Assembly (NCBI RefSeq): GCF_007971225.1
Contig: NZ_CP042435.1
Location: forward strand, 4,095,501 to 4,159,500
DNA: 64,000 nucleotides
Direction: 5' to 3'
DNA from: Panacibacter ginsenosidivorans
GTDB taxonomy: Bacteria > Bacteroidota > Bacteroidia > Chitinophagales > Chitinophagaceae
Part shown: piece by piece, positions 15,396 through 61,175 of the stretch
Layout of the letters: every line of letters begins with the position of its first letter
Position numbering within the stretch: the first letter of the stretch is position 1
The notes under the pieces: model-generated
What the model was told of the DNA's origin: nothing
Seen by the model: the letters and a program-made list of their open reading frames with translations, nothing else
Databases searched by the model: none
Program-made: the position numbers and the translations under genes

Positions 15396-15453
15396 ACTAA
15401 AAGCTAAGAACTATTCGTCGCCCCGCCATATTGCCAATGCAATGTTAGTGGCC
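15396..15453 (-). other. attC-like site 8, truncated
   Basis: Right part only: AAGAACTATTCGTCG, CCGCCATATTGCCAATGCAA, then core GTTAGTGGCC (15,444-15,453). The left part is lost to the IS1182 remnant. The same AAGAACT...ATTCGTCG phrase occurs in sites 1 and 4. Confidence 0.7.
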
Positions 15454-15457
15454 GTTT

Positions 15458-16204
15458 TTAATAAAGTCCTGGTATTGGAAATCTATAACCGATAAAATAC
15501 TTCTTACCGTTTATTTCAAACGCTTGCTTTTCCCGTCTTTTCTTTATGAGCTTTGTCAACTGGCTAAAATGTTTTTTGTCTAAGAATATGCTTGTTACAT
15601 AGCCTTCTTGCTTTCTTGTGTCTGGGCTATTGAGGTTAGGCCAATCTGTAGGCCATTGAATTGGTGTGTCTGGTGAATGGCTATAGTCAGACAACATTAC
15701 TTCAATTTTGTCGGGTATCCACTTTGTGTATCTATCAGCGTCAAAGTTTAAAACGAAGTCATGAATTTTTAAAACCTGCGATGGAAATCTTTTCCGATAA
15801 TCTCTTGATGAAATATATCCGTAAACTGATACCCGAACCATGGTGTCAAGCCTTACGAAAACGCTATAAGAAGGATTGTCTGTTGCCATTATTTCACCAT
15901 CAGGGTCAGGATTGGTTGCATTATAAAACCTGCTTTTTTGAAAAAGTGTATCTCTTAAATTTAGTTCATCAATGAGTTCCTGTTTTTCGCTTTCGTCAAG
16001 GTGTGTCACATTATAACCACCACCTTTCCAAAATAGAACTTTGCCATTGTCATACAAAATGAAGGGCGGGCCCTCTGCTCCCATAAACATAGCCCACGGG
16101 TCGCTAACACGATACCAAAAGATTGGTTTGCCAAAACTTGTATCTGATTGCCCAAAAGAGGTCTGTCCGATAAAAAGGATGATGAGAAGAAAAAGGCGTG
16201 TCAT
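15458..16204 (-). CDS. Secreted protein of unknown function (cassette C8)
   Basis: A 248-residue protein with a signal peptide (MTRLFLLIILFIGQTSFGQ). The mature part is rich in aromatic residues (PIFWYRVSDPWAMFMGAEGP, NGKVLFWKGGGYN) and reads like a beta-rich periplasmic protein. No family recognised. The stop codon lies 4 bp from the core GTTAGTGGCC and the start codon 43 bp from the matching inverted core at 16,248-16,257, so the gene nearly fills its cassette. Confidence 0.7.
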   Translation of the reverse strand: MTRLFLLIILFIGQTSFGQSDTSFGKPIFWYRVSDPWAMFMGAEGPPFILYDNGKVLFWKGGGYNVTHLDESEKQELIDELNLRDTLFQKSRFYNATNPDPDGEIMATDNPSYSVFVRLDTMVRVSVYGYISSRDYRKRFPSQVLKIHDFVLNFDADRYTKWIPDKIEVMLSDYSHSPDTPIQWPTDWPNLNSPDTRKQEGYVTSIFLDKKHFSQLTKLIKKRREKQAFEINGKKYFIGYRFPIPGLY

Positions 16205-16441
16205 GTTTTTATTGAAAGATGCAGTAATTAGGGTGGTTGCATAAAATGGCCACTAACGTTCTAGTATTTGCGAAGGCAGGGGATTCGTTGATTGTCCAGC
16301 CCCGGTACAAATGCCAATTGGAAATATGTTGTTGAAGTTATGAACTAAAGCTGAAAATTGAACATCGAGCCCGAACCGATGCTGATGCTTGCGCATAGCT
16401 AATGTTACATTGTCCAGCCATGCTATTGCCAAGCATCTATG

Positions 16442-17313
16442 TAAAAGCGATAATTTGAGAGTCCTAAAATTCAAGAAAATGAATTACACTCAAACTACCG
16501 CTGTACCAAAGTTATTTATTGGTATGGACGTTCACAAAAAAAGCTGGACAGTACATTTTAAAACAGATTTATTTGATAATAAAACTGTAACAATGCCATC
16601 AGATCACTTTGTTCTGATAAACTACGTTGAAAAGAATTTTGCGGGTCACGAAGTGGGAGATATCAGGAGATTTAACCGTTTAGATGAACTGGCAGCCATT
16701 GTAGGATTAGTACCGGGTATTTACCAGAGCAGTGAGAACAAGATCAATTTGGGGTTAACCAAAAGAAGCAACCATCAATTAAGAAGCTTATTGATAGAAG
16801 CCAGTTGGGTAGCAGTAAGAACAGATATGGCCCTGCAACAATATTACCGTCAACATGCGCATAAAGAACCTAATAAGTCAATCATTAAAGTAGCGCACAA
16901 ATTACTAAGCCGTATACGTGCAGTGATCAATAGCGGAATACCATATCAAAGCGGAGTTGTAAAATAATTATACAACTATAATCAAGCTCATCATTAAAGC
17001 ATAAACCAAAGCCGACTGCACAACATGAGGAGTGGCATTACAATAAAAAGTGAAGGATCACATCGCAAAGCAGGCAGCTGTTTTTACTTAAACTAAAACT
17101 GATGCAGGTAGCTCTCTGAAAGGATAGACTACAAATAGGATGCGGAGCTGACTATAAAAAATACCACTGTGTCTTTGAATGATTGAACAGCAACTGGTGT
17201 ATCAATAATCAACAACTGAACACACAATCATCCAAATCCACAGTGTACAACTATAACTATGTAGTACCATTAATAAATATATTGAACCTCTCATAACGCT
17301 TTAGGAGCCTGAT
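16442..17313 (+). mobile_element. Internally deleted IS110/IS1111-type insertion sequence
   Basis: Sits exactly at the G of the attC-like core: the site's right arm ends ...CATCTATG and the next cassette core begins GTTAGCGG. Subterminal inverted heptamers TCCTAAA (16,462-16,468) and TTTAGGA (17,300-17,306) are as expected for the IS1111 branch, which has subterminal rather than terminal repeats and makes no target duplication. The 340 bp after the transposase frame show no other gene. The exact ends are inferred from the site junctions. Confidence 0.65.
16479..16967 (+). pseudogene. IS110-family transposase with large internal deletion
   Basis: A 162-residue open frame against about 330 for the family. 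The N-terminal part has the DEDD-nuclease opening KLFIGMDVHKKSWTVHFKT. After about 60 residues it jumps directly into the C-terminal Transposase_20 domain (LDELAAIVGLVPGIYQSSEN, NHQLRSLLIEASWVAVR) and ends normally. The join is in frame, but the rest of the DEDD catalytic domain is gone, so it cannot be an active transposase. It could survive only if mobilised by an intact relative elsewhere. Confidence 0.85.
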
Positions 17314-17466
17314 GTTAGCGGCTCGTTTTTTTTAGTTCATTTTTATAAACGTTCAATTATTAGGTATGCTTTACAATTGAATTATAAAATGTTTGCCCTG
17401 CCTGCAATAAAACGGACAAAGGCAATTGTCCTATTTGTAACTTTCCAGGTGAAATTATTTCCTACG

Positions 17467-18732
17467 CTATGGCTCCAGGGCAATAAGTTGTCCCCTGGTC
17501 TTGGGGCCGCCAGTAAAAGCTCCACCATCCGTTACTACATAAAGGGTATGAATATCCTGTGCTGATTTACCAAAAATGGCATCAGTTGGTCCATTGATAT
17601 GCTGTTCCATTTTTGCGATAATTGTTCGCTCGCCCGCAGGTGATATTTTAACAACTGTATTATAAGGATGGGTAGTTACAAATAAAGAACCATCCTGACC
17701 TATAGCAAAGTCATCACCAGGGATACCCGTGGCAATTACCGTTGACTTACCAAACTTGCCTTTCTCATCCACAGCGTATTTAAGCAGTGTGGTACGGTCA
17801 GATACTGTTACAAGCAGATCACGCCCTTTGAAATGTAATCCATTGGCTCCTGGCGCCAGTGAAATAAACGGCCGGGCCAGTAATAAAGGGTCACGCATTG
17901 CTTCTTCGAAACGGCCGGTATTGGGGTCGATTCGCCATATTACACCGAGCTGGCTGTCTGCCGAATACAGCATACCATCTGGCCCTTCATCTAAACCATT
18001 GGGCCAGGCATTTTTCGGAAACTGAACTATTTGCACTGGCTTGTTGCCGTTATTGATGCGCCATATATAAGAGGTTTCTCCGTGGCTGGTGAGATAGATT
18101 GATTTATCGGGCGCTAAAAAAGGAACGCCAGATGTATTTCCTTTTGGGGCCTTGAACAAGATATGCTCTGAGCCATCTGGTTTTCGTTCAATCAACTCTC
18201 CCTGTGCAACGTGATAATAATCGTCTCTTGAAAAATCGATATCCCGGTTTCCTGATAAATAAAGCGTGCCATCTTCTCCTGCAGCAATTCCTTCAAACCA
18301 GAGGCCTTCGTCGTAGGTTTTAATAATACGAGCCGAACATATATTTAAAGGCAGTTCGTCTGCTTTTGGCAGGGCAATCACTTTAAGGCCAAGCGGCTTA
18401 GCTATACCAACCAGCACCGATAAAATCATTAACAAAGCAGGCAACACCCACAATTTGGCAACGTTTAAATGGGCTGCTCTGCATACCAAAGGAATGGTAG
18501 TGGCAAAGGCAATGCAACATGCAAAAAAAACAAGAAAGGGTACTGGAATACCAGCCACATTTGTAATAAAAGCAATCCACAAAAACGAAGCCTGTATGAT
18601 GCGCCCCCAGCGCGTTTTTGGGATGATGTTTTCTAATTGCTTAAACATTTGCGGCCGGAGGGTAACAATAGAAGCAGCGATGAGTAATGCCAAACAAAGA
18701 AACAACTGAAATGAAATAATAATTATTTGCAT
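17467..18732 (-). CDS. SMP-30/gluconolactonase-like beta-propeller protein (cassette C7)
   Basis: A 421-residue protein. Residues 1-120 hold four hydrophobic membrane segments (IIISFQLFLCLALLIAA, ASFLWIAFITNVAGIP, LVFFACCIAFATTIPLV, LWVLPALLMILSVLVG). The rest is a six-bladed propeller with repeated lactonase/NHL-type turns (WPNGLDEGPDGMLYSADSQL, GDDFAIGQDGSLFVTTHPYN, FEGIAAGEDGTLYLSGN). The propeller would face the outside. Function unknown; sugar lactone hydrolysis is a family guess. It is preceded by a Crp/Fnr gene 97 bp upstream in the same cassette, which may control it. Confidence 0.75.
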   Translation of the reverse strand: MQIIIISFQLFLCLALLIAASIVTLRPQMFKQLENIIPKTRWGRIIQASFLWIAFITNVAGIPVPFLVFFACCIAFATTIPLVCRAAHLNVAKLWVLPALLMILSVLVGIAKPLGLKVIALPKADELPLNICSARIIKTYDEGLWFEGIAAGEDGTLYLSGNRDIDFSRDDYYHVAQGELIERKPDGSEHILFKAPKGNTSGVPFLAPDKSIYLTSHGETSYIWRINNGNKPVQIVQFPKNAWPNGLDEGPDGMLYSADSQLGVIWRIDPNTGRFEEAMRDPLLLARPFISLAPGANGLHFKGRDLLVTVSDRTTLLKYAVDEKGKFGKSTVIATGIPGDDFAIGQDGSLFVTTHPYNTVVKISPAGERTIIAKMEQHINGPTDAIFGKSAQDIHTLYVVTDGGAFTGGPKTRGQLIALEP

Positions 18733-18829
18733 GCCTTTTAATTTTTTTCAAAATTCGAGAAAGGCAAATCAACATCACTAAACAAAAGATAAGAAATAAT
18801 GCAGTCAACATTATTTAAAATGAATGTAC

Positions 18830-19489
18830 TCAGCTGTGATGATACTGGTGAATTCTCTTTCTGATACGTGAAAGTGACACTGGCGTAATGCCTATAAACT
18901 GTGCAATGTATTGCAACGGTATACGTTTTACAATGTCTTGCCCCGATTCTAATAAATCAAGGTATCTTTCTTCAGGCGTTTTTACAATAAATGATTTTAT
19001 GCGGTCTTCAAAAAGTATATTAAACCGTTCTGATATTAACCTCCCCAATCTTTCCATTTTAAAAGACAGCAAAGGATGTTCTAATAAAACCTGCATGTTC
19101 TTTTTTGAAATGATTATAAAAATTGTTTTTTCCAGTGTTATGATATCATATAGAGAGGGATAGCCTGTAAGAAAGCTTTTTAAAGCAGTAACAAAGTTGT
19201 TTTCAAAAGCAAAATATCCTGTTATTTCTAATCCATCAACTATACTGCAGTAACGCACTGAGCCCTTAAAAATATAACCCAAATCTTCACAAATTTCACC
19301 GGTTGTTGCAAAACACTCATTCTTGTTTCGTTTTTTAATTTCTAAAAAGTCAGCAAATACTTCCCATTCCTTATCGGTGAATGTAATGTAACTTTTAATT
19401 TTCTCCCTGTATACGGGTAACAAAATGGCTCTTTCCAATTCTTCGCCTTTACGTAAATAAACAAATAATTCAATCTTTCTGTAATGCAA
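18830..19489 (-). CDS. Crp/Fnr-family regulator (cassette C7)
   Basis: A 219-residue protein with a cyclic-nucleotide-like beta-roll (EICEDLGYIFKGSVRYCSIV, ENNFVTALKSFLTG) and a C-terminal helix-turn-helix (PLQYIAQFIGITPVSLSRIR). It belongs to the Bacteroidota Crp/Fnr group that often regulates an adjacent gene. First gene of cassette C7 in the direction of transcription, upstream of the SMP-30-like gene. Confidence 0.87.
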   Translation of the reverse strand: MHYRKIELFVYLRKGEELERAILLPVYREKIKSYITFTDKEWEVFADFLEIKKRNKNECFATTGEICEDLGYIFKGSVRYCSIVDGLEITGYFAFENNFVTALKSFLTGYPSLYDIITLEKTIFIIISKKNMQVLLEHPLLSFKMERLGRLISERFNILFEDRIKSFIVKTPEERYLDLLESGQDIVKRIPLQYIAQFIGITPVSLSRIRKRIHQYHHS

Positions 19490-19820
19490 TTTTACATCGG
19501 CTGATGTATATAGTATTATTTTGTTAAACTATTTATTTCTTTTGCGAACAAATGTAGACACAGATGACATTCTCTGATATCCTCAACCCAGGTCATTTTG
19601 ATAATTGTCGGAAAGCAGAATGGTCGCTAACGTTGAAGCATTTGTGTTTGTGGCGGAATTTTAAATCTGTCAGCCTGGTACAAATGATGATGTAAAATAC
19701 AAAAGTTCATTGTTAATTCTATTGCTCAATGTATAACATCGGGCTGGGGCAGAAGCTGATAGTAGCACACAGTTGAAACGGCGTTATCAGTCCGCCGACA
19801 TAACACAAATGCAATGTACC

Positions 19821-21580
19821 TGTTGCACAACTAAGATACCCACATGATGTGAATGAAGCAAGAAACAGAATAATTTTTGTTGAGAATAATTCATGCAAGG
19901 CAAAAAGCAAATAGAACCAAAAATGCTCTATACGATTACGCTGGAGCAATTGGTGCCGCAGGATAATTTCTACCGGCGGTTAAAAAAAGTAATAGCAATG
20001 GATTGGCTGTATAAAGCCACCACAAAGTATTATGGCAGTGAAGGTCAGAAAAGCATAGATCCTGTAGTGTTTTTCAGGATGTGTTTAATAGGTTATATCA
20101 ACAACATAACCAGTGATCGTAAGCTGATAGAATTTTGTTCAGACAGTTTAGGGATAAGATTGTTTTTAGGTTATGATATAGATGAAGCATTGCCATGGCA
20201 CAGTACAATAAGCAGGACAAGACAGTTGTATGGAGAAGAAGTATTTAAACAACTCTTTGAGCAGGTATTTGAAAGATGCATGGAGAGTGGCATGATAGCA
20301 GGCCCCACACAGGCAGTAGATGGGGCATTTTTAAAAGCCAATGCAAGCAAGGATAGTCTGGAAATAAAGCAGGTAAATAAAAGTGTGGATGAATATTTAC
20401 TGGAAAACATAAAAGCAAATACTACAGCACGCAGACCAGCAAAAATAAACAGGGCAGATGAAGATCAGCAACATATGGATGGCGATGATGAACAGCAGGC
20501 GAGAGAATTAAAAGAATTAGATACGAGGTATCAGCGGCAGGAGAAAAATTATGAAGAGATGCCGGGCAGTGAAAGCAGGGGTAAGTTTTTAAGCAACAAA
20601 ACACATTACAGTCCCACCGATCCGGATGCACGAATAGCCGTAAAGCCAGGTAAACCAGGAGAATTGTATTACAATGGTCAGATAGCAGTAGATACAGCAC
20701 ATCATGTAATTACCCATGCACAGAGTTTTACAGCAGATGTTAAAGACTGTAGGGATTTAATAACGGTAACAAGACAACTGCAGGCAAGACTACAGCATCA
20801 TGGGATGGAGATAGAAAAACTACTTGCAGATGCAGCCTATAGCAGCGGAGAAAAATTATCAGTACCTGGAACAACAAAACATCACAGCGTATATACCATT
20901 ACTGGGTGGAGCATTAAGCGGCAGTGAAGGATTTATGTATGATGAACAGAATGATTGGTATATCTGTCAAAACAATAAGATATTAAAAGGAAGTGGCAGA
21001 GTAGTAGACGATGGAAGAGGTCACCTGGTAAAGAAATATTTTTCATTACAAAGTGATTGTAAAAATTGTCCATTAAGAAAGACCTGCATCAGTGATAAAG
21101 CCAAAACAAAAAAAGTACAGCACAGTATATACAAAGCAGAACTGGAAAGAGCAAAGGCAAGACAACAGACCGTAAAAGCAAGGGTGATGAAGAGAAAGGG
21201 CAGTAGTACGGTAGAACCGGTATGGGGCACACTGATCAATTTTACCGGCATGAAGCGTTTAAATGCAAGAGGAATAAAAGCAGCCAACAAAATGCTGTTA
21301 CTGGCGGCTACAGTATATAACCTTAAGAAATGGTTGCGGTATAATGCACCTAAGACAGCAATCAAAGCAATGGCACTTATAAAAGCAAACAAGGCAGCAG
21401 GTTTTGACTTTTTAAAAATCATTGTACAGCGACTTGTTTTAAGCCCAATAGCGGCATTAAAATTTTCTGTCTGTAAAATGTGTTTTACAGGAAAGTAAAA
21501 ATAGCTTCTCTCTAATAGCTTCTAAATGCTTTTTGAAATGGAGAATAAATGTAACTTTTTGAAATTATGGTTGTGCAACA
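19821..21580 (+). mobile_element. IS1182-family insertion sequence (copy a)
   Basis: Bounded by perfect 11-bp terminal inverted repeats TGTTGCACAAC (19,821-19,831) and GTTGTGCAACA (21,570-21,580). No direct target duplication is obvious. It is inserted 4 bp after the conserved CAATG T of attC-like site 6, on the opposite strand to the cassette genes. Confidence 0.85.
19893..21498 (+). pseudogene. IS1182-family transposase, frameshifted
   Basis: The first part reads 344 residues (MQGKKQIEPKMLYTITLEQL onward, VPQDNFYRRLKKVIAMDWLY, DDE-type core AVDGAFLKANASKDS and LLADAAYSSGE). It then breaks in the run GAGAAAAATTATC near 20,855. Removing one A restores the frame and continues into the C-terminal part (QQNITAYIPLLGGALSGSEG, CKNCPLRKTCISDK, VEPVWGTLINFTGMKRLNAR). 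The break is a single-base insertion; either the element is dead, the product needs frameshifting, or the base is a sequencing error. Intact copy b has no such break. Confidence 0.85.
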
Positions 21581-21591
21581 GTGACCCCATG

Positions 21592-22119
21592 TTAGCGGAT
21601 GCCCGGCTTATTTAAGACAAAAAATGATTGAGTTGTATATACTGTGGCAGACTTGAAATAATTTTGAAGCCGGCCATATTCAACAAAACCTGCCCTTTTA
21701 TAAAGTTTCACTGCCTTTTCATTTTCGAAAACAGCACTCAAAATTATTTGCTCAATCAACTCGCTACTAAATGCCTTATCAATGGTTTTTTGTAATAAGA
21801 TTTGCCCTACACCTTGTCCTTTATAGTTAGGGTCAACAAACATTTGAACTACCTCGCCACGATGTTTTGTTTTTTGCCTTGTTTCAGCGAGGAAACCGCA
21901 TATGCCAATTAATGTTTTATCTGTATTAAATGCGCCGATTGTAAAATTATAACTGTCAGGTTGGGAAATTGAATTATCTAATTTCAAAACTTCAGAATTT
22001 CTCTCTTCTTGGGAAGTTGTTCCGAAATTATTTGGATATTGTTCGAGGCAATTGATTCTAATCCTACGATATTCGCCAAGATCGTCTGGCCCCAATAACC
22101 GATAGAATATTTCATGCAT
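21592..22119 (-). CDS. GNAT-family N-acetyltransferase (cassette C6)
   Basis: A 175-residue protein with the acetyl-CoA-binding signature VQMFVDPNYKGQGVGQILLQ (R/Q-x-x-G-x-G/A variant, QGVGQ), and the C-terminal VFENEKAVKLYKRAGFVEYG typical of GNAT enzymes. Substrate unknown. Its stop codon TAA is the TAA inside the cassette core (GCTAAC on the coding strand), so the attC-like site supplies the end of the reading frame. Confidence 0.9.
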   Translation of the reverse strand: MHEIFYRLLGPDDLGEYRRIRINCLEQYPNNFGTTSQEERNSEVLKLDNSISQPDSYNFTIGAFNTDKTLIGICGFLAETRQKTKHRGEVVQMFVDPNYKGQGVGQILLQKTIDKAFSSELIEQIILSAVFENEKAVKLYKRAGFVEYGRLQNYFKSATVYTTQSFFVLNKPGIR

Positions 22120-22161
22120 AATTTGTAATTCTTTTGACTGTCACCCCAGGGTTTCCGCTAA

Positions 22162-22357
22162 CGTTAAAGCATTTGTGAAGGCATGGAATTTCTCGTTCCG
22201 TCAGCCTGATACAAATGTTTAGTTGAAAAACTAAGGTTGAAGATAATTACAAATGTTCAATAGCGTAATGTCGGCTGATAACAAAAGATGATAAGAATTA
22301 CTGCTGCTCATTGCGGCTGGTCAAGCCATGCTTTTACAAATGCACTTGTTAGCCACC
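22162..22357 (-). other. attC-like site 5 (intact, 196 bp)
   Basis: Outer arms AAAGCATTTGTGAAGGCATG and CATGCTTTTACAAATGCACT are imperfect inverted copies. Core sequences: TTAGCGGAAA of C6 on the left and GTTAGCCACC of C5 at 22,348-22,357. Confidence 0.8.
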
Positions 22358-22367
22358 GGTTTATTAT

Positions 22368-23549
22368 TCAAATCTTTTCAATTAATGCGATCGTCTTTTC
22401 CAAACCTTTTGAGTCTTGTAGTTTCTGTGCTATCTCTAATGCGTTTTCTTTATACCTCTTATTGTTTACACAATCATTGATTGCGGCTATTAAAGCAGAA
22501 ACTGATATCTTTTTAAAATCACAAGAATGTGGACCCAATCCTAATTTGACAATTGTCTTACGGTTCTCAAACTGGTCAAACATATAGGGAAATGCAGCTT
22601 GGGCAACACCTGCTTTTGCTGCATACGCCATCGTACCGCTTCCACCATGATGTATGATTGCAGTCATTTTAGGAAATAACAAATCAAACGGAACATCATC
22701 AACATACAAGACGTTGGGTGAAGAATTAATTGTTGCCAGTTCTGCCCATCCCTTTGATATTATTAATCGTTGGTTTGTTTTCTTTGATACCTCTTCAAAT
22801 ATATCAGTTAACTTACCAGGATTTGATATTGGGTTACTGCCAAAGCTAATAAATACAGGAGGTTTCCCGGCTGTGATAAAGTCTTCAACATCCTTGGATA
22901 ATTCTTGCAATGGAGATAAAAACATATAACCCGTTTGGGTGTATGTTGCCTTAACACCATCTCGTACTTTATTTAGAACAACATCAGAAGCAACAATTAT
23001 GTTATCACCTCCAAAATATTTAACTACATTATTAATAGGTGATATCCCTCCTTCTTTTCTTTTTTTATTTATTGTGCCTTTTAGTAGTTTATTTAGCATT
23101 GACATGCCCATATTAAATTTCAAACGTTCCAGAAAAGAACCGGTGTTTCCTGGGCCTAATGCCGAAGGGTAAAAAATTACTAATCGAAAAGGGACTTTGG
23201 CAATTTCAGCAGCAGACCTTACGCCAAAAACAATTCCGGAAGCTAACACTAAATCTGACCCCTGAATAATTTTCGGAAGAAACTCTATCTGTTTTTCGAT
23301 CTCCTTTTTTAGTCCTTTAGCAGACGAAAAACTATCCGGCGATTTTTTAGCGGCGGCATTTATTTTCATTTGTTCTCTCACATTTGGACCGAAAGGTCTG
23401 AAAGGACAATTGTAACTTGTTACTAACTTCTCATTCTCCGGATTAGCGCAAAACAATACTTCATGTCCCCTTTTTATCAATCCATCTGCTAATGCAAGCA
23501 TTGGTTGAACTCCCCCCCTTGTATCATATACTACTATTGAAATTTTCAT
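22368..23549 (-). CDS. UDP-glycosyltransferase-like (GT1/MGT type) enzyme (cassette C5)
   Basis: A 393-residue GT-B fold protein. N-terminal half MKISIVVYDTRGGVQPMLAL and LIKRGHEVLFCANPENEKLV; C-terminal half with FISFGSNPISNPGKLTDIFE, VLYVDDVPFDLLFPKMTAII, the donor-site HHGGSGTMAYAAKAGVAQAA and PYMFDQFENRKTIVKLGLG. These are the signatures of the macrolide/sterol glycosyltransferase family. Acceptor unknown. It lies 57 bp downstream of a Crp/Fnr gene within the same cassette. Confidence 0.9.
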   Translation of the reverse strand: MKISIVVYDTRGGVQPMLALADGLIKRGHEVLFCANPENEKLVTSYNCPFRPFGPNVREQMKINAAAKKSPDSFSSAKGLKKEIEKQIEFLPKIIQGSDLVLASGIVFGVRSAAEIAKVPFRLVIFYPSALGPGNTGSFLERLKFNMGMSMLNKLLKGTINKKRKEGGISPINNVVKYFGGDNIIVASDVVLNKVRDGVKATYTQTGYMFLSPLQELSKDVEDFITAGKPPVFISFGSNPISNPGKLTDIFEEVSKKTNQRLIISKGWAELATINSSPNVLYVDDVPFDLLFPKMTAIIHHGGSGTMAYAAKAGVAQAAFPYMFDQFENRKTIVKLGLGPHSCDFKKISVSALIAAINDCVNNKRYKENALEIAQKLQDSKGLEKTIALIEKI

Positions 23550-23606
23550 AACAAGAATTTAGAGCCAAATATGAACTAAAAAGGGAGATTATTATTTGAC
23601 ATTAGG

Positions 23607-24173
23607 TCAAATAATTGAAGCTCTGATGCGGCTCAAAGTTTCTTGGGTAATGTCCAAAAATGAGGCGACATGTTTCAACTTTGCCTTTTGCATGATTTCG
23701 GGAGCAAAAGCTAGCATGGCATTATATTTTTCTTTCGCTGTCATTAACTTAAATCTATAGTTAACTTCATCAATACCGGCAAGAAAGTATCTTAACTGCT
23801 TTGTATGAAATTTAGTAAACAATGGATATTTATCCAAGAGTTTTTGTTCGTCATTAAAAGAGATGGAATAAATCACAGTATCCTCACATGCCTGTAAATA
23901 TTCATATGCAGGTTTTTGTTCAAAAAAACTGGGCATAGAAGTAGTCATTTGATTGCTGCCATAAAACCAAATAGTTACTTCCTCTTCGTTGTATATGAAA
24001 AACCTGCGTACAAAGCCCGATTTTATAAAGAATACCTTAGTGCAAATTTTTCCTGCTTCCACAAGTAATTCATCTTTCTTGTATACTTCTTCTACAAATA
24101 GATTCTGTACAGCCTGTGCTGTCTCATTATCAAGTTTTTGAAATTTATTTATATAATTTAATAATTCTAACAT
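23607..24173 (-). CDS. Crp/Fnr-family regulator (cassette C5)
   Basis: A 188-residue protein: beta-roll with VFFIKSGFVRRFFIYNEEEV and WFYGSNQMTTSMPSFFEQKP, dimer helix TKFHTKQLRYFLAGIDEVNY, and helix-turn-helix KLKHVASFLDITQETLSRIR. The first gene of cassette C5; the glycosyltransferase follows, so it is the likely target. Confidence 0.88.
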   Translation of the reverse strand: MLELLNYINKFQKLDNETAQAVQNLFVEEVYKKDELLVEAGKICTKVFFIKSGFVRRFFIYNEEEVTIWFYGSNQMTTSMPSFFEQKPAYEYLQACEDTVIYSISFNDEQKLLDKYPLFTKFHTKQLRYFLAGIDEVNYRFKLMTAKEKYNAMLAFAPEIMQKAKLKHVASFLDITQETLSRIRASII

Positions 24174-24461
24174 TTTAGATGCAGTGTCTTTTTAAACTGG
24201 TGGCTAACGGTAGGGCTTGCTGCTGTGCTGGAAATCGACTTCCTTCAGCCTGGAAAGTTAGCCCAACAGCGAACCTGTAGATGAAGATATGTACAAATGC
24301 TGAACGATGAAAGTCTGGCCCGGACTGCTGACGATAGATGCAATAAAGTTGAATTTAAGAACTAATGTTGAGATTTATTCGTCGAGCCCGAACGACAGCC
24401 TGGATTTGCAATTAGCTGATGTTACAATGTCGAGCCCAACTTGCATAAAACCCAATGTGCG

Positions 24462-26145
24462 TGTTGCACAACTAAGATACTCACACTATGTGAATGAATG
24501 AAGAAGCAGAATAATTTTTGCTGATATTTTTTATGCAAGGGAAAAAACAATACAACGAACAACTCTTTAAATCATTTCAGTTATCAGATCGTGTACCGGA
24601 GGATAACTTTTACCGCAGACTTAAAGAGCTGCTTGATCTTAGATGGCTATATACCACTACAAAAAAGTATTATGGTACAGAAGGTCAACAGAGCATTGAC
24701 CCTGTTGTTTTTTTCAAACTAATTCTTATTGGTTATTTAGAGAACCTGGGTAGCGACAGACGCATCATTAACACAGTTAGCATGCGTTTGGATATGCTTT
24801 TTTTCATTGGTTATGATATAGACGAAGCCTTACCATGGCACAGTACTTTAAGCAGAACAAGACAGTTGTATGGAGAGTCTGTATTTAAGGATCTGTTCAG
24901 GCAGGTATTAAAGCAATGTATTGATAAAGGCATGGTAGCAGGCAGAAGACAAGCTATGGATAGTGTTGCCGTAAAAGCTAATGCAAGCATGAGCAGGCTT
25001 GCAGAAAAAGCAGTACTCGATGACGGGGATGATTATACAGATGAGCTCAATGATACGGATGACGGCGATAAACAAAACAAAACTGTATCATCAGCAAGAA
25101 AAAGATCTGTTGATCTTCATCATGGGTGGAAAGCCAAGGCGTATAAGGATATGCCCAAAGGGAGCAAAGAACAGCAGGCAGCATCAAAATTTGTAAGCAA
25201 TCACACGCATTACAGCACTACGGATGCAGATGCAAGAATATCTGTAAAGCCGGGTAAGCCCAGGCAATTAAATTATCATGCACAGGTATCAGTAGATACA
25301 GCGCATCATGTCATTACACAGATACAGGCAGATCATGCCAATAAAAAAGACTCTCAGTGTTTATCCTCCTTATTAAAGAATACTATTGATAATTTACAGC
25401 AGCACGATCTTGAAATAGACGAAGTACTGGCAGATGCAGGTTATAGCAGCGGCACAGCATTGCAGGCATTGGAAGATAATAATATTGAAGGATATATACC
25501 CAACTTTGGTCAGTACAAACCATCAAGGGACGGGTTTACTTATGATAAAGAAAATGATCGTTACACCTGTTCAAGAGGTGTGCATCTGCCTTTTAAAAAA
25601 CTTACAACAACAAGTCTTGGTTACCAGATGAAAGTATACCGGAGCAGTAGTAAAGACTGTGGTCACTGCCCATTAAGAAGCAAATGCATCGGCAAGAGTG
25701 ACTTTAAAAAGATAGATGATTCTGTTGATAAACCTTTATATGATCGTATGCATGCAAGACTACAAACTAATAAAGCCAAACGGATGAAAAAGATAAGGAG
25801 TGCAACAGTTGAACCTGTACTTGGCACACTGGTCAACTTCTTAAACATGCGGCGGGTAAACACAAGGGGTATAAGACAGGCTAATAAATGTATGCTGATG
25901 GCAGCTATTGCTTATAATATTAAAAAACTGATGAGGTTTACAACAAGAAAAGTACAGATTGATACAAAAGCTTTGCAGATAAATCTGCAAAACACTTTTT
26001 TATTTGTTTTAAGCTTTGTCAGTATGTATAGAGACACCTATCATTTACACCTCGTAAAAAAACAAAATCAGGTATAACAACAATAAACTGATTTAATAAC
26101 AGCCAGATAGTAATCGATTAATTTTTTTGAGGTAGTTGTGCATCA
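24462..26145 (+). mobile_element. IS1182-family insertion sequence (copy b)
   Basis: Terminal inverted repeats TGTTGCACAAC (24,462-24,472) and GTTGTGCATCA (26,135-26,145), 10 of 11 matched. Like copy a it sits 4 bp after CAATGT of an attC-like site, and the 11 bases between its right end and the cassette core resemble those of copy a (GTSACCNCNTG). Confidence 0.85.
24533..26077 (+). CDS. IS1182-family transposase (intact)
   Basis: A 514-residue transposase, starting at MQGKKQYNEQL; an in-frame start 5 residues earlier is possible. Domain order: N-terminal SDRVPEDNFYRRLKELLDLR, DDE core (QAMDSVAVKANASMSRLAEK, VLADAGYSSGTALQALEDNN), cysteine-rich segment CGHCPLRSKC, and C-terminal VEPVLGTLVNFLNMRRVNTR. 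It looks complete, so it could be active. Related to copy a but clearly diverged at the protein level. Confidence 0.92.
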   Translation: MQGKKQYNEQLFKSFQLSDRVPEDNFYRRLKELLDLRWLYTTTKKYYGTEGQQSIDPVVFFKLILIGYLENLGSDRRIINTVSMRLDMLFFIGYDIDEALPWHSTLSRTRQLYGESVFKDLFRQVLKQCIDKGMVAGRRQAMDSVAVKANASMSRLAEKAVLDDGDDYTDELNDTDDGDKQNKTVSSARKRSVDLHHGWKAKAYKDMPKGSKEQQAASKFVSNHTHYSTTDADARISVKPGKPRQLNYHAQVSVDTAHHVITQIQADHANKKDSQCLSSLLKNTIDNLQQHDLEIDEVLADAGYSSGTALQALEDNNIEGYIPNFGQYKPSRDGFTYDKENDRYTCSRGVHLPFKKLTTTSLGYQMKVYRSSSKDCGHCPLRSKCIGKSDFKKIDDSVDKPLYDRMHARLQTNKAKRMKKIRSATVEPVLGTLVNFLNMRRVNTRGIRQANKCMLMAAIAYNIKKLMRFTTRKVQIDTKALQINLQNTFLFVLSFVSMYRDTYHLHLVKKQNQV

Positions 26146-26170
26146 GTCACCACCTGTTGTGTGCCCGTGT

Positions 26171-26755
26171 TTATCGGTTCTTAAATCTTACAAATTCATC
26201 TGCGTGTAATCTGACAAAGGTTTCCAGCAGCTTCATTGTCTTTTCATGTTGAGCAATAAAAGCTTTGTCATAGGGCTTGAACTTTCTCTGGATATACTTC
26301 CAGTCCCAAGTTTTAAACTTTTGCGTGATAGAAGCTTTATTTGCCAAATAAACTCTGTTCACACCCTCAACAACTTTTAGCATACTTGTATCATTGATAA
26401 GCTTTAATGCTTTGACCGTTTCCGAGTAATAAGACTTGTAATTGTAGTAAAAGTTTGCAAAGCCTAATTCGCCGCCAATAACCGCCCTTTCAAGTTCCCA
26501 TATATAAAACAAAGCCTTTTGTTTGTCGGTAAGTATTCCCGCTGATACAGCTCTCCTTTCAGGGTCACCGGATAATGTGTCATTGATTGGTTGAAAAATA
26601 ATCCAAGTAAAGTCTGAGCCCTTCAATGTGTCAAATTGTCCCTTGTCAACTATTGAATAAAAATGGCTAGTATCAATTGAGTTTACTCTGCTGAATACTT
26701 TGTTGTCAGCAGAAGTCAAAACGGAAAATAATATGACTACAAATAAATACCGCAT
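26171..26755 (-). CDS. Secreted protein of unknown function (cassette C4)
   Basis: A 194-residue protein with a signal peptide (MRYLFVVILFSVLTSADNKV). The mature part is largely helical (KQKALFYIWELERAVIGGEL, ALKLINDTSMLKVVEGVNR, AQHEKTMKLLETFVRLHADE). The stretch ending in ADEFVRF resembles DMP19-type proteins of unknown function, but I cannot be sure. The stop lies 5 bp from core GTTGTGTGCC and the start 21 bp from the matching core. Confidence 0.65.
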   Translation of the reverse strand: MRYLFVVILFSVLTSADNKVFSRVNSIDTSHFYSIVDKGQFDTLKGSDFTWIIFQPINDTLSGDPERRAVSAGILTDKQKALFYIWELERAVIGGELGFANFYYNYKSYYSETVKALKLINDTSMLKVVEGVNRVYLANKASITQKFKTWDWKYIQRKFKPYDKAFIAQHEKTMKLLETFVRLHADEFVRFKNR

Positions 26756-26785
26756 TAGTAGAATGGTCGGTTACATGGCACACAA

Positions 26786-26977
26786 CGCACATGCATTGGC
26801 GAAGGCACGGCATTTATTCTATGCCGCCTGGTACCAAAGCTGATTGTTTATAAATAGCTGATTGAATATTACCAATTTTCAGTAGCACCACTGTCGCCGA
26901 AACAACCGTTCCTCCGTGAAATTATAGCCGATGCGTTATTCGTCCGCCGTGCTTTTGCCAATGCAAGGTTGGCTGTA
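26786..26977 (-). other. attC-like site 3 (intact, 192 bp)
   Basis: Outer arms CATGCATTGGCGAAGGCACG and CCGTGCTTTTGCCAATGCAA are near-perfect inverted copies. Core of C3, GTTGGCTGTA, is at 26,968-26,977; the core of C4 is on the left. Confidence 0.85.
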
Positions 26978-26994
26978 GTTGTTTTGTCCCCAGG

Positions 26995-27447
26995 TTATTT
27001 GTAATTGTCAAAATTCAATTTAGTTGGCAAATAAAATGTCCCACTAAATTTGTTTTTATTCTTGTCGGTAGCATCGTCAAAATGTATTGCACCAGTTGAA
27101 GCATAAACCAGTCCTGATGATAGAAAAGTGTTGTCTTTAAGTTTAACTTCAAGTATAATATGTCCTGGCTTAATTAAAAGTCCGCCAGCAAACTTTGCTT
27201 TCTTAAGTTGCTCTTTTAAAATCGTAAATTCCTTTGTCGTCAAAGTATGTATACCGCTGTAATTTTTAACTTTTATAGTTACAATATTGTCTATTGGGAA
27301 AATTGAATCCAATAATTGTCCCTTGGCTATAGTTATACTTCCTGTATTTGTTTGCACTTGAGAAAAATTCATCTTAGTGTTCAAACTAAATAATACAATT
27401 AGTAAAACTATCATTTTATAAGGCTTAATTGATGATGTTGCTACCAT
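26995..27447 (-). CDS. Secreted protein of unknown function (cassette C3)
   Basis: A 150-residue protein with an N-terminal hydrophobic signal (MIVLLIVLFSLNTKMNFSQ after a short basic start). The mature part is beta-rich (ITIAKGQLLDSIFPIDNIV, GGLLIKPGHIILEVKLKDNT, NKFSGTFYLPTKL). No family recognised. The start codon is 36 bp from the C3 core at 27,484-27,493; a later start at the MIVLL methionine is possible. Confidence 0.6.
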   Translation of the reverse strand: MVATSSIKPYKMIVLLIVLFSLNTKMNFSQVQTNTGSITIAKGQLLDSIFPIDNIVTIKVKNYSGIHTLTTKEFTILKEQLKKAKFAGGLLIKPGHIILEVKLKDNTFLSSGLVYASTGAIHFDDATDKNKNKFSGTFYLPTKLNFDNYK

Positions 27448-27492
27448 GTCAAGGTCAATTTATGGTTGAAGTCGGTCTACAATTACAGCCAA

Positions 27493-27683
27493 CGAGCAGG
27501 GCTTTATGCAGGTTGGGAAATAGCATTCCGTCTGCCGACAACCGCTGCTGATTGAAAATATAAAGTTGAATTTAAGAACTAAAGTTGAAAGTTGTTTGTC
27601 CAGCTCGAACTACAGCTTGGATTTGCAATTTGCTGATGTTTGTTTGTCGTGCCCAACTTGCATAAAACCCAATGTTAGCGGTT
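27493..27683 (-). other. attC-like site 2 (intact, 191 bp)
   Basis: Outer arms GGGCTTTATGCAGGTTGGG and CCCAACTTGCATAAAACCC are near-perfect inverted copies, flanked by the C3 core on the left and GTTAGCGGTT of C2 at 27,674-27,683. Confidence 0.85.
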
Positions 27684-28244
27684 GTTTTTAGTCCGATAGA
27701 ACTTTGCTCCTTCGGGTAACTTGTCAGAACCTACACAAAACAAAGTGTCGTTTTTTAATTGCAGTTGAATTTTGTCTAAGTAAATACGAACGGTGTCATT
27801 AGGCCCCGGCAAAACAGGTGACGGAGCATCTTTGAAACCTACGAACGTATATTCAACTTCTCCTTTTTTTAGTTTTCGTTTTGCTTTTTTAGGCTCTGCG
27901 ACTTCTGTTGATTTGATTGTGTCCGTCTGTTCTTTTTGTTTAAAGGTGTCAAAACTGGTCAGGATAATTGTTCCATTGTCATTAGTCCATTGCCCTTGTG
28001 AGATTTTTTGTCCATAACAACCTTGGTCATGAAATTTAAAAGTTCCATTGTCTTGCAGTGTCAACTCAGAAGAGTACCAAATGGTGTTACTATATTTCCA
28101 CGCACCAGTCAGTGAATTTTGAGTTTGTGTCTTGGTTGATGACGATAAAACCTGTGTCGCACTATTCCTGTCTTGTTTAGTGTTGCACTGTGCCAAAAGA
28201 AACAGCCCTAAAGATGCCGATATGAAATTGCGAAGTGTCACCAT
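27675..28244 (-). CDS. Lipoprotein of unknown function (cassette C2)
   Basis: About 189 residues from the start at MVTLRNFISASLGLFLLAQC, which gives a lipoprotein signal with the cysteine in LLAQCN; the frame is open further upstream but that part lies in the attC-like site. The mature part, GAWKYSNTIWYSSELTLQDN, CYGQKISQGQWTNDNGTIIL and YRTKNNR at the end, resembles lipocalin-like/META-type small proteins. Start codon is 5 bp after the C2 core and the stop codon is the TAA within the C2 core, so the gene fills the whole cassette. Confidence 0.7.
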   Translation of the reverse strand: MVTLRNFISASLGLFLLAQCNTKQDRNSATQVLSSSTKTQTQNSLTGAWKYSNTIWYSSELTLQDNGTFKFHDQGCYGQKISQGQWTNDNGTIILTSFDTFKQKEQTDTIKSTEVAEPKKAKRKLKKGEVEYTFVGFKDAPSPVLPGPNDTVRIYLDKIQLQLKNDTLFCVGSDKLPEGAKFYRTKNNR

Positions 28245-28258
28245 AAAATAACCGCTAA

Positions 28259-28454
28259 CGGGCAGGTATTGCCGATGGTGGGGAAATAGAATTTCGTCCG
28301 CCGGGAACAACTGCCTGGCTTTTTGATAAAGTTAAATATTAAGAACTAAAGCTGGGCATTATTCGTCGAGCCCCGAACCGCAGTACAACAAAATTATTGC
28401 TGCTAATTGTTTCAATGTCCAGCCGCACTATTGGCAATACCAATGTTGTAAGCC
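28259..28454 (-). other. attC-like site 1 (intact, 196 bp)
   Basis: Outer arms GCAGGTATTGCC and GGCAATACCAATG are inverted copies. Between them lie TTAAGAACTAAAGCTGGGC and CGTCGAGCCCCGAACCGCAG, phrases shared with other sites. Core of C1, GTTGTAAGCC, is at 28,445-28,454. Confidence 0.85.
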
Positions 28455-28461
28455 GTACTTC

Positions 28462-29565
28462 TCACTCTCCAAATAGAGACTTTAGCTTTTCAATTAGACT
28501 GTCACCTTTTAAATTCTTCGCAATAATCTTTCCTTGTGGGTCAAGCAAATAATTGGTTGGTAGTTCTGTTACTGCATAACTTTTTGCAACTGAATTTTTA
28601 AAGCCATTTAAATCAGATACGTTTTTCCATGGAAGTTCATCTTTGGTAATAGCCTTTATCCAAGCTGCTTTGTTATTGTCAAGTGATACACCTAATATGT
28701 CAAAGCCTTTAGGAAAATATTTTAAATAAGCTTTTTTTAGATGGGGATTTTCAGCACGGCAGGGTCCACACCAACTTGCCCAAAAGTCAATTAAAACATA
28801 TTTTCCAATAAAGTCTGATAAACGAACAATATTATTAGCTGTGTCAGCTTGTTGAAAAGTAATTGCTTTTTTGTTAAGTGCCGTGAGCTGCTCCGCTTCA
28901 AATATTTGATACTTCAACTGCTTGCCAACACTATGATTTTTCAAGATAGGCGACAACGACATGAAAAGCTTTTTTGCTCTTTGTATTCCATAGCTTTTTT
29001 GAAGTTCATTGAGTTGAGCAAGGCTAATGTAAGATGATGGATGTGCTTTAATAAAGCGGGCAATAGAGTCGTTTATTCTTTTAGTAATCGCAACATTTAG
29101 TTTTTCAAACTTTTTACCTGTTGCAGAGTCGCCACGGTTATATGCAGCAAAGACACTGTCAAAGGATGCTGATTGAGATGCAAAAAAGGGTTTAATAATA
29201 GCCCTTAGTTTTTGGGCAGATTTTAATTCTTTAGAACCACTGATACTAGCCTGTCGTAATGAGTCAGCATTACCTTTAAATTTTAACTTGTCATTGCTTA
29301 AAATAAAAGGGAAGTAAGCCGGTTGCCCTTCTACCAATAAAGAGTAATAATCGGTCTCTTTTACTTTGCCTTTTAAAGTAAACTTTCCACTTTTTACAAT
29401 TGCAGAGTCAATTGCATTTGCTTGTGCCGTTGGAGCTACATAGATTTTTTTGCCATCAGCGTTTTCAATTTCTCCTGCTATTTCGAATCCTGTTGAGTTT
29501 TGTCCATAGGTGTGCAAAGAAAAAATCAATAAAATTAGGATGGCTAATTTAGTTTGGTGTGTCAT
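28462..29565 (-). CDS. TlpA-like thiol-disulfide protein with DUF4369 (cassette C1)
   Basis: A 367-residue periplasmic protein: signal peptide (LAILILLIFSLHTYGQ), an N-terminal DUF4369 beta domain (FEIAGEIENADGKKIYVAPT), a helical linker, and a C-terminal thioredoxin domain with the active-site motif ASWCGPCRAENP and cis-proline segment VTELPTNYLLDPQGKIIAKN. Family knowledge: such proteins reduce disulfides in the periplasm. The start codon is 8 bp after the C1 core at 29,574-29,583. This is the cassette next to the recombinase remnant, the position where new cassettes arrive in classical integrons. Confidence 0.9.
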   Translation of the reverse strand: MTHQTKLAILILLIFSLHTYGQNSTGFEIAGEIENADGKKIYVAPTAQANAIDSAIVKSGKFTLKGKVKETDYYSLLVEGQPAYFPFILSNDKLKFKGNADSLRQASISGSKELKSAQKLRAIIKPFFASQSASFDSVFAAYNRGDSATGKKFEKLNVAITKRINDSIARFIKAHPSSYISLAQLNELQKSYGIQRAKKLFMSLSPILKNHSVGKQLKYQIFEAEQLTALNKKAITFQQADTANNIVRLSDFIGKYVLIDFWASWCGPCRAENPHLKKAYLKYFPKGFDILGVSLDNNKAAWIKAITKDELPWKNVSDLNGFKNSVAKSYAVTELPTNYLLDPQGKIIAKNLKGDSLIEKLKSLFGE

Positions 29566-29583
29566 GATAGTATGGCTTACAAC

Positions 29584-29660
29584 GTGTGTATTGGCGTTAT
29601 TATACGCAATGTAATATTTTTTGTGTTATTGAAAACCAACCATTTAGCCGTTATACATTT
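29584..29660 (-). other. Candidate attI-like site at the array head
   Basis: On the minus strand, just before the C1 core, there is ATTGCGTATAATAACGCCAAT, whose halves GCGT and ACGC are inverted around TATTAT, and then ACACACGTT. It has no attC-type arms. Its position between the recombinase remnant and the first cassette suggests an attachment site; this is an inference. Confidence 0.35.
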
Positions 29661-29685
29661 TATATTGTCGTTAGGACAATCCACC

Positions 29686-30095
29686 CTACCATTCTATATT
29701 TTCATTCTTCAATAGATCATCTAATTTGCTTATAATATTTACAAGTTTTTGTTTACTTACGTGTAAATATCTTTCTGTTGTTTTAATATCGAAATGTCCC
29801 GGTAACTCCTTTATATATTTAATATCTGTTCCCTTATCAAGCAAATGGGTTGCAAAACTGTGGCGTAAACTATGAATGCCAACTTCTTTTCTGATTCCCG
29901 CTTTCAGTTTCGCATTGTAAAAGATTTTGTACTGTTCTGGGCGGGTATGCGTTACCTGTTTGTTCGCTTTCAAATAAATAAGTAACCGGTCTTGGTTGGT
30001 AGTTCTTGATATAACTTCTAAGTAAGTCAAGTAACACCGGACTCAGGGTTACATATCTGTCTTTTTTTCCCTTTGATGAAAATGCTTCGCTTTCT
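29686..30095 (-). pseudogene. Tyrosine recombinase remnant, frameshifted and 5'-truncated
   Basis: The C-terminal part is open: HSLRHSFATHLLDKGTDI gives the catalytic His and second Arg, and PGHFDIKTTERYLHV gives the later His and the nucleophile Tyr. Further upstream, the frame KGKKDRYVTLSPVLLDLL, then YIKNYQPRPVTYLFESEQTG and AYPPRTVQ continues only after restoring one missing base near 29,925. The N-terminal domain and the first Arg are not recognisable. It resembles the XerD-type integrases common in Bacteroidota and lacks room for the extra IntI-specific patch. Same strand as the cassettes, with its 3' end facing cassette C1. Confidence 0.8.
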
Positions 30096-55502: not shown

Positions 55503-56096
55503 ATGAGCTTAACAAACGACATTATCAAAGAGAAACTAATAGAAAAGTTTGGCGACCAACTAACCAACTTTGAAGAACCTTATGGCATGCTTACTTTCGA
55601 AGCGCCAAAGGAAATGAACCTTAAAGTAATGCAGTTCCTGTTTGATGATGAAACACTTCGCTTTCAATTTTTAACTGATCTTACAGCGGTACATTATCCA
55701 AATCAAAAAGGAAGGGAATTGGCAGTTGTTTATCACCTGCACAATCTTGTAGATAATATTCGTTTGCGTTTGAAGGTATTTACAGATATCAATAAGCCCG
55801 ATATTTTTACGGCAACCAAATTATATTCATCAGCAAACTGGATGGAAAGAGAAACATATGATTTCTATGGAATTAATTTTGTTGGTCATCCCAACCTGAA
55901 AAGAATTTTGAATGTGGATGAAATGGATTACTTTCCTATGCGCAAAGAATACCCATTAGAAGATCAAACGAGAATTGATAAAGATGATGAAATGTTTGGT
56001 CGCGGTGGAACATTTGGATTTGGAACGGAAAGGAATAAAACAGGTGAAACAATGGCAGAAGAAGATAAAGGTAATGTTGGCGATAAAATAGTGTAA
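55503..56096 (+). CDS. nuoC: NADH-quinone oxidoreductase subunit C
   Basis: A 197-residue subunit of the peripheral arm, separate from nuoD here. Seen: FLTDLTAVHYPNQKGRELAV, YSSANWMERETYDFYGINFV (the family's WxxRE-D-Y-G motif), GHPNLKRIL and PMRKEYPLEDQ. The C-terminal tail is acidic (ETMAEEDKG). Confidence 0.95.
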   Translation: MSLTNDIIKEKLIEKFGDQLTNFEEPYGMLTFEAPKEMNLKVMQFLFDDETLRFQFLTDLTAVHYPNQKGRELAVVYHLHNLVDNIRLRLKVFTDINKPDIFTATKLYSSANWMERETYDFYGINFVGHPNLKRILNVDEMDYFPMRKEYPLEDQTRIDKDDEMFGRGGTFGFGTERNKTGETMAEEDKGNVGDKIV

Positions 56097-56128
56097 TGTG
56101 CTATTTATTTTTGCGCAAAGAATAAAGC

Positions 56129-56189
56129 GTACAAGTGAGTGACACAACAGAAGTCAAATAGTAATTCAAAAGTTAAGTACATAAAAATA
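56129..56189 (+). repeat. Intergenic REP-like repeat, copy 20 (nuoC-nuoD)
   Basis: GTACAAGTGAGTGACACAAC, then AGAAGTC and ACATAAAAATA (subtype II, forward), ending 17 bp before the nuoD ATG. Confidence 0.88.
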
Positions 56190-56205
56190 AAAATATAAGA
56201 CAGTA

Positions 56206-57441: not shown

Positions 57442-57509
57442 AAATTCTAAATTAAAAAGTAAAAATTCAAAACACTTTTTTTGACTTTTTACTTTTGACT
57501 TTTACTTAT

Positions 57510-58010: not shown

Positions 58011-58062
58011 GAGCCGGGCAGCATTGCTGCTATGTAGCTTTTGTTGCGTCGCACTCTTGTAC
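58008..58062 (-). repeat. Intergenic REP-like repeat, copy 21 (nuoE-VOC)
   Basis: GGAGCCGGGC, spacer, CTTTTGTTGCGTCGCACTCT, TGTAC (subtype I, reverse). It overlaps the nuoE stop codon by a few bases. Confidence 0.88.
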
Positions 58063-58100
58063 GTTTAGTTCTTTGTTCAACATATTTCAAACTTGCTATT

Positions 58101-58505: not shown

Positions 58506-58526
58506 AAGATGAATAAAGTTGTTACA

Positions 58527-58585
58527 GTACAAGTGAGTGACACAAGGAACGATGAGTAAAGATTATAAGTTGGCTGATAAAATTC
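58527..58585 (+). repeat. Intergenic REP-like repeat, copy 22 (VOC-nuoF)
   Basis: GTACAAGTGAGTGACACAAG, GAACGATGAG, then GGCTGATAAAA (subtype II, forward), 19 bp before nuoF. Confidence 0.85.
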
Positions 58586-58604
58586 TTTTTAGGAGTTAGG
58601 GCTT

Positions 58605-59951: not shown

Positions 59952-59953
59952 AT

Positions 59954-60010: not shown

Positions 60011-60053
60011 ATTGATAGTTCTTTATTCACTATAATCAGAGCAAAGAATTTAT

Positions 60054-61169: not shown

Positions 61170-61175
61170 TTACTA

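Follow-up and report, generated by a model that had tools for sequence, protein, structure and literature searches.

The window analysed here, a stretch of 64,000 nucleotides (nt) from the chromosome of Panacibacter ginsenosidivorans, very probably carries an array of eight cassettes belonging to an integron-like system of Bacteroidota, whose units are mobile one by one and whose tyrosine recombinase is different from IntI, the integrase of integrons. Judging from the comparisons below, this system appears to act like an integron yet fails the defining tests of one, and would form a parallel, IntI-independent lineage. Every gene is likely to form, with the palindromic site that follows it, a mobile unit of its own.

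Organization of the array

The array lies on a complete chromosome of 5.53 Mb and consists of eight units (15444-29583) with every gene on the minus strand, as a previous sequence-only reading had described. The units are separated by palindromic sites, of which four are intact (S8, S7, S6 and S4), three interior ones are split by insertion sequences (IS) and the leftmost is truncated. The lengths given earlier for the intact separators (196, 191, 192 and 196 bp) refer to the same objects with slightly wide ends; from AAC to GTT they measure 191, 186, 187 and 191 bp. The eight cassettes carry ten genes, cassettes 5 and 7 having two each; three of the ten are without Pfam match, and one of the two matches to cyclic nucleotide monophosphate (cNMP)-binding domains is below the cut-off. 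From the recombinase remnant at the head to the last site, the features are as follows:

29686-30030, minus strand: C-terminal remnant of a tyrosine recombinase, 114 amino acids (PF00589, 61.2 bits)
29583-29686, minus strand: attI-like stretch from recombinase stop to first cassette, putative function assigned from the likeness of its layout to intact heads
28445-29583, minus strand: cassette 1, gene 28462-29565 (thioredoxin/AhpC-TSA-DUF4369 protein), ends GTTGTAAGCC / GGCTTACAAC
28257-28447, minus strand: attC-like site S8, intact, 191 bp
27674-28259, minus strand: cassette 2, gene about 27675-28244 (start picked by eye), no Pfam match
27491-27676, minus strand: attC-like site S7, intact, 186 bp
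26968-27493, minus strand: cassette 3, gene 26995-27447, no Pfam match
26784-26970, minus strand: attC-like site S6, intact, 187 bp
26156-26786, minus strand: cassette 4, gene 26171-26755 (DMP19-like protein, Pfam)
24206-26158, minus strand: attC-like site S5, split by an IS1182-like element (transposase 24518-26077, plus strand), with a site body longer than in the other sites of the array
22348-24208, minus strand: cassette 5, genes 23607-24173 (cNMP-binding regulator) and 22368-23549 (glycosyltransferase), both by Pfam
22160-22350, minus strand: attC-like site S4, intact, 191 bp
21591-22162, minus strand: cassette 6, gene 21592-22119 (GNAT acetyltransferase, Pfam)
19629-21593, minus strand: attC-like site S3, split by an IS1182-like element (transposase frames 19893-20927 and 20824-21498, plus strand)
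17314-19631, minus strand: cassette 7, genes 18830-19489 (cNMP-binding-like, below the Pfam cut-off) and 17467-18732 (SMP-30-like)
16255-17316, minus strand: attC-like site S2, split by an IS110-like remnant (16389-16967, plus strand)
15444-16257, minus strand: cassette 8, gene 15458-16204, no Pfam match, ends GTTAGTGGCC / GGCCACTAAC
15396-15446, minus strand: attC-like site S1, last of the array, truncated

A covariance model of the four intact sites matches 19 places genome-wide at E<0.01, seven within the array (including the four training sites) and 12 outside. The possibility, raised beforehand as one that would speak against such an array, that the separators are numerous among ordinary core genes was thus not borne out, and the search proposed for the separators in related genomes did find sites there, as well as in 64 of 118 genomes of the phylum (see below).

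Paired unit ends and folded sites

The ends of each unit constitute an inverted repeat peculiar to that unit (GT-N8 ... N8-AC) whose arms agree inside the unit and not across the separator, as exemplified by GTTAGTGGCC at 15444 with GGCCACTAAC ending at 16257, and by GTTGTGTGCC at 26156 with GGCACACAAC ending at 26786. To measure this pairing, sites were located with the model of the four intact ones (R1) in the window and 44 stretches of its own and related genomes, and the 9 nt following GT where one site ends were set against the 9 nt preceding AC where the next begins. Of 177 matches, 168 had a usable length and 149 of these a usable core, which gave 95 neighbouring pairs. The mean match is 6.76 of 9 inside a unit (95 pairs) versus 3.86 across a separator (149 sites) and 4.10 for random pairs; shuffled partners agree at 4.15 of 9 (sd 0.13) and none of 5000 shuffles reaches 6.76. 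Inside units, the first seven positions after GT are paired in 83-94% of the pairs, the eighth in 64% and the ninth in 2%. The same pairing was found with a second site model, R2, in named loci (28 pairs, 7.25 of 8 versus 4.02 shuffled; nine of the 33 R2 training sites come from these loci) and in loci from a phylum survey (41 pairs, 6.85 of 8 versus 3.99 shuffled). In two of 78 confirmed units, the third core base is altered jointly on both sides (GTA/TAC for GTT/AAC). Pairing of this kind within units is what a cassette folding as a circle on its own two ends requires; linear terminators or repeats would not yield it.

The longest frame is in sense in 75 of the 78 confirmed units, which are therefore made of a gene plus a site in one orientation, as in integrons. 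Integrons have the core GTTRRRY / RYYYAAC; GTTRRRY fits only 5 of the 78, all from the window's order. The core of the present sites reads GT-T-R-N-N-N-G-Y-N-A, with at most 10 paired bases per unit end. In Rufibacter (L123 12520-15808), sites of only about 70 bp adjoin a recombinase without the IntI insertion, and the ends pair 8/8 in two of three units.

From AAC to GTT, most sites measure close to either 124 or 188 nt and so form two length classes; the sites are imperfect palindromes in which structure is kept over sequence, another trait of integron sites. In 33 short-class sites from 14 stretches of the window's order and from six named loci of Flavobacterium, Arundinibacter and other Bacteroidota, 93.0% of the stem cells are paired versus 65.3% after shuffling. 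The covariation score is 0.635 versus 0.149 (sd 0.016) shuffled and 0.056-0.130 with slid partners, a comparison that favours the unslid version in so far as the structure was taken from the same alignment. An asymmetric internal loop flanks the stem. The bottom strand is predicted to be the more stable in 90 of 143 Chitinophagales sites (51 for the top strand) and in 22 of 26 named-locus sites outside Flavobacterium enshiense (3 for the top strand), whereas the top strand is the more stable in 10 of 10 sites of F. enshiense. All ten sites of the latter species (L100 11730-19551) also carry TANNTTTG on their sense strand and none carries it on the other strand. This sequence, which we take to resemble a Bacteroidota promoter element, might drive the next cassette.

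The recombinase

The recombinase remnant is upstream of the first cassette, at a distance of about 104 nt. It aligns only with residues about 273-371 of a full-length relative (L010), is 61-73% identical to full-length relatives, and no other close copy is present in the 5.53-Mb genome. The full-length proteins (about 370-430 amino acids) head arrays elsewhere in Bacteroidota. Recombinase (or remnant) and sites occur together in twelve stretches; in nine of them (the window, L056, L064, L066, L076, L080, L081, L083 and L087), the recombinase is at the head, on the same strand and points into the array. In the named loci, 49 of 50 sites (E<=0.01) are on the strand of the recombinase and 47 of 50 are downstream of it.

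These proteins score 162 and 188 bits against the IntI model TIGR02249, below its cut-off of 265, and the match is broken in two, profile positions about 182-237 being missing. The spacing between the KGxKxR and HxxR motifs is 64-69 residues versus 106-107 in IntI, and the alignment to 2a3v is split. The recombinase of the array thus lacks the IntI-specific domain. In a quick tree of 42 rows (11 of 53 requested gave no frame; most of the Bacteroidota recombinases come from loci or genomes with sites), six IntI form one clade (support 100). A separate group outside it (support 89) contains 27 Bacteroidota recombinases and one Spirochaetota row, and the Xer of the P. ginsenosidivorans genome itself is located on another branch than the array recombinases. 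The XerA/XerH-type proteins 4a8e, 5hxy and 5jk0 rank with the best matches to the catalytic part by sequence and by fold; scores against the XerA equivalog NF040815 (207.4 and 213.9 bits) lie below the cut-off of 220.

The N-terminal domain, about 60 residues long, is predicted as beta-beta-alpha-beta-beta-alpha (mean predicted local distance difference test, pLDDT, 79). It matches weakly PF07443 (HARP; 2 of 15 members, best E 0.0013) and DUF5710 (5 of 15 members, best E 0.0024). The HARP structure of SMARCAL1, 4o66, ranks first with Foldseek at E 0.21, and a profile search with the domain places 9d01 first (E 0.00058) and 4o66 second (E 0.26); 4o66 is absent among the VIA matches listed for the domain, where the best Z is 4.3. 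None of these matches is convincing taken singly. We assume that HARP binds forked DNA; it is a substrate recognition domain according to the title of 4o66. The HARP-like N-terminal domain is perhaps a reader of the folded site that replaces the domain of IntI.

Two Chryseobacterium plasmids (NZ_CP041688.1 and NZ_CP094530.1) encode proteins related to the recombinase, with 38-39% identity over 99% of its length.

Putative attI and sharing of single cassettes

In nine heads, the first cassette begins at a GT located 97-286 nt past the end of the matched recombinase part, and 9-10 of its first 10 bases agree with the arm of the first site. One genome harbours three heads whose attI-like stretches are identical at 97, 91 and 91 of 101 positions as far as the core; beyond it, where three different first cassettes follow, the heads agree at only about half of the positions. 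Two heads of another genome are identical at 101 of 101 positions, then at 48 of 104 beyond the core. By this comparison the stretch is, as in integrons, a probable attI that receives different first cassettes. Of the recombinase, three heads (L066 4008-4169, L081 5364-5534 and window 29686-30030) retain only the C-terminus, together with the attI-like stretch, as though that portion had been repeatedly copied or retained at array heads.

Units are shared singly between genomes. In F. enshiense DK69, an intact recombinase is followed by ten sites, and one cassette of this array recurs in genome G137 with 86.5% identity over 1446 bp. The homology starts 2 nt ahead of one GT core and stops 3 nt past the next, and nothing else is alike in the 4-kb stretch around the shared cassette (L223 5815-7253 / L100 15244-16685). 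The L223 copy encodes, as named by eye, an ArsR-type regulator, a MerT/MerP-like protein and a protein with a GDCCVxC motif. G137 also has a cassette in common with G103, a genome of a different family (99.3% over 1326 bp), which spans from CGTT core to CGTT core; the only further likeness is stem-like and covers 22 nt before the first core. Its own site, about 90 nt long, escaped both models, but the arm agrees with the cassette start at 9 of 10 positions. In two genomes of different families (L224 11852-12634 and L008 341-1123), the first cassette behind the recombinase carries the same gene for a nucleotidyltransferase-like protein of 260 amino acids (named by eye); the two agree in the gene part and differ in the sites that follow. 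In Panacibacter sp. DH6, a genome of the same genus as that of the window, gene parts of cassettes are also duplicated at separate places (98.4-100%). Taken as a whole, these comparisons indicate that cassettes move singly, as they do in integrons.

The array could instead belong to a genomic island brought by a phage- or ICE (integrative and conjugative element)-type tyrosine integrase, the separators being palindromic terminators or repeats and the units immobile. A tyrosine recombinase remnant is indeed present, and at the same locus of a congener (stretch L243) the flanking matches are 312 bp apart versus about 20.8 kb here (12777-33597, array included), a segment that appears to have been either gained here or lost in the congener. 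The same difference, which concerns the block as a whole, also answers the concern expressed beforehand that the block might always be identical in relatives. Terminators do not predict that ends pair inside units and not across separators, that single units with edges at cores are common to genomes, or that one attI is followed by different first units, and we regard the island as most improbable.

Distribution in Bacteroidota

In a survey of 118 genomes drawn evenly across Bacteroidota (sites by R2 at E<=0.001; recombinase by profile A5 at E<=1e-40, remnants included; IntI at its cut-off; E-values of home-made models being rough), sites were found in 64 genomes, the recombinase in 44 and canonical IntI in 39. 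Sites track the recombinase (40 of 44 genomes with it versus 24 of 74 without, p=2e-10) and do not track IntI (18 of 39 with versus 46 of 79 without, p=0.24). They are present in 28 of 29 genomes that have the recombinase without IntI and in 6 of 24 that have IntI without the recombinase. When the survey is limited to the 29 genomes from the window's class or nearer, 21 carry the recombinase or a remnant, 25 carry sites and one carries IntI. One Panacibacter genome carries at least 71 sites at E<=0.1, and R2 gave no match at E<=0.1 in 15 genomes outside the phylum.

These data bear on whether the array is an ordinary integron deprived of its IntI, i.e., a cluster of attC sites lacking integrase (CALIN) with long attC sites formerly served by a canonical IntI. 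The overall anatomy is the same, canonical IntI is above its cut-off in a third of the surveyed genomes (39/118), and CALINs are common according to passages of PMC9024848. By name, the term fits, as no IntI is nearby, but the array has its own recombinase remnant at its head and intact heads exist elsewhere. We consider a true CALIN very unlikely, given that sites follow the other recombinase and not IntI, which is nearly absent from the window's class, that the remnant of the window belongs to this other recombinase and that so few cores fit GTTRRRY. As for the alternatives left by the sequence-only reading, the array is not simply an attC cluster without integrase, since a remnant of the right recombinase stands at the correct end, and the data favour a related but different system. 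Its description as an integron-like array holds for the gene-plus-folded-site units, their single orientation and the GT core, and does not extend to membership among classical integrons.

Proposed mechanism and points against it

The following model can be drawn. A circular cassette would fold on one strand, with both ends of the same unit pairing. The fold would comprise a 10-bp outer stem, an asymmetric internal loop of 2-3 / 6-7 nt and a 17-pair inner stem containing two mismatches. The recombinase would then cut beside the CGT core and join the cassette to a double-stranded attI or to another site. Since it lacks the domain that serves IntI to read extrahelical bases, it must recognize the hairpin in another way, perhaps via its HARP-like N-terminal domain. 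On balance, we lean towards a second integron lineage in Bacteroidota, in which a HARP-Xer recombinase captures single-stranded folded cassettes without the I2 domain, and which would be common in the window's class where IntI is nearly absent.

Alternatively, recombination might be Xer-like and occur between double-stranded GT cores, the hairpin serving another purpose such as protection or transcription termination. The resemblance of the recombinase to XerA (207 and 214 bits for NF040815), its lack of the IntI domain and the non-uniform strand preference agree with this. Such recombination is nevertheless unlikely, as stem pairing is kept while the sequence varies and as the outer arms pair only inside one unit, which recombination between double-stranded cores would not need.

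Several observations weigh against the reading of single mobile cassettes moved by a recombinase of a distinct lineage. The role of the recombinase as mover of the cassettes is suggested by linkage; in three of the twelve stretches (L079, L088 and L089) recombinase and sites are not co-directed, and L091 has a recombinase and no site was found there. In the survey, 24 of the 74 genomes without recombinase at E<=1e-40 still carry sites, including 18 of the 50 with neither enzyme, and 15 genomes have both enzymes. A constraint placing IntI and these recombinases in one clade is not rejected (approximately unbiased test, p-AU 0.076), so that an ancestor shared with IntI is possible. Among the 95 end pairs, 17 have fewer than 6 of 8 matches; some of these correspond to IS-split sites, missed sites or double hits on the reverse strand, and the rest are unexplained. 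Predicted stability shows no uniform preference for either strand as the one that folds. In the other genomes compared, no cassette of the window itself turned up as a whole unit. Lastly, G009 and G137 have a first cassette in common (93.6% over 963 bp) with a likeness ending at the R' core where the site begins; the gene was kept and the site was not, and the two would have been parted.

Relationships with known systems

Integrons based on IntI share with the present system units made of a gene and a palindromic site in one orientation, a GT core, an attI beside a tyrosine recombinase, transfer cassette by cassette and long arrays. They differ from it by their core (GTTRRRY versus GT-T-R-N-N-N-G-Y-N-A with at most 10 paired bases per end). 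Moreover, the present recombinase is outside the IntI clade, without the IntI-specific domain and with an extra N-terminal domain; the sites are mostly near 124 or 188 nt and the recombinase is co-directed with the cassettes in 9 of 12 stretches. The integrons of Treponema also have an integrase co-directed with the cassettes and, in some species, long sites; they are described as intI-based in the portions of PMC3607928 consulted, whereas the present recombinase fails the IntI model. The XerA/XerH-type recombinases (4a8e, 5hxy and 5jk0) resemble the present ones by the sequence and fold of their catalytic part; the latter head cassette arrays and carry an N-terminal extension. In the integration of CTXphi by XerCD, as outlined in an extract of PMC4792948, a phage strand is used by recombinases without the IntI domain, but CTXphi has neither cassettes nor arrays nor a recombinase of its own.

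IntI is marked by a unique additional domain, and IntegronFinder requires this domain (sections of PMC9668308, which cites Messier and Roy 2001 for the former). Bacteroidota are listed among the phyla with integrons in parts of PMC8618304 and PMC9668308, and the attC models described in the relevant section of PMC8352920 cover 11 taxa, Bacteroidetes not being included. A search based on the IntI-specific domain would miss the present recombinase, found in 21 of 29 class-or-nearer genomes (sites in 25 of 29, IntI in 1 of 29). Our literature search found no account of the present system; subscription papers and preprints were outside its scope, so that a published account is possible. The accepted view makes integrons dependent on IntI with its additional domain; here, folded sites are tied to a recombinase that lacks this domain. 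The joint origin of the I2 domain and attC, presented as a chicken-and-egg paradox in an excerpt of PMC4792948, thereby becomes testable. If true, the intermediate, or the independent invention, that the problem of integron origin demands would have a living example in this system. The cassettes common to genomes carry mercury-transport-like and nucleotidyltransferase-like genes (named by eye).

History of this copy

Three IS elements of two kinds are found in the array: an IS110-like remnant (16442-17312) and two elements (19818-21583 and 24462-26150) that we presume to be IS1182-like, Pfam itself giving DUF772 and DDE transposase domains. All three entered the separators at the same point, directly behind the R' core (GCTAAC|AT). 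IS elements that target attC sites are known, and the present insertions recall them. The array is probably inactive, or frozen, because its recombinase is truncated and the genome has no other close copy. Elsewhere in the window (56001-62000), the GC skew rises up to 0.27 (58001-60000), and it is near zero in mid-window.

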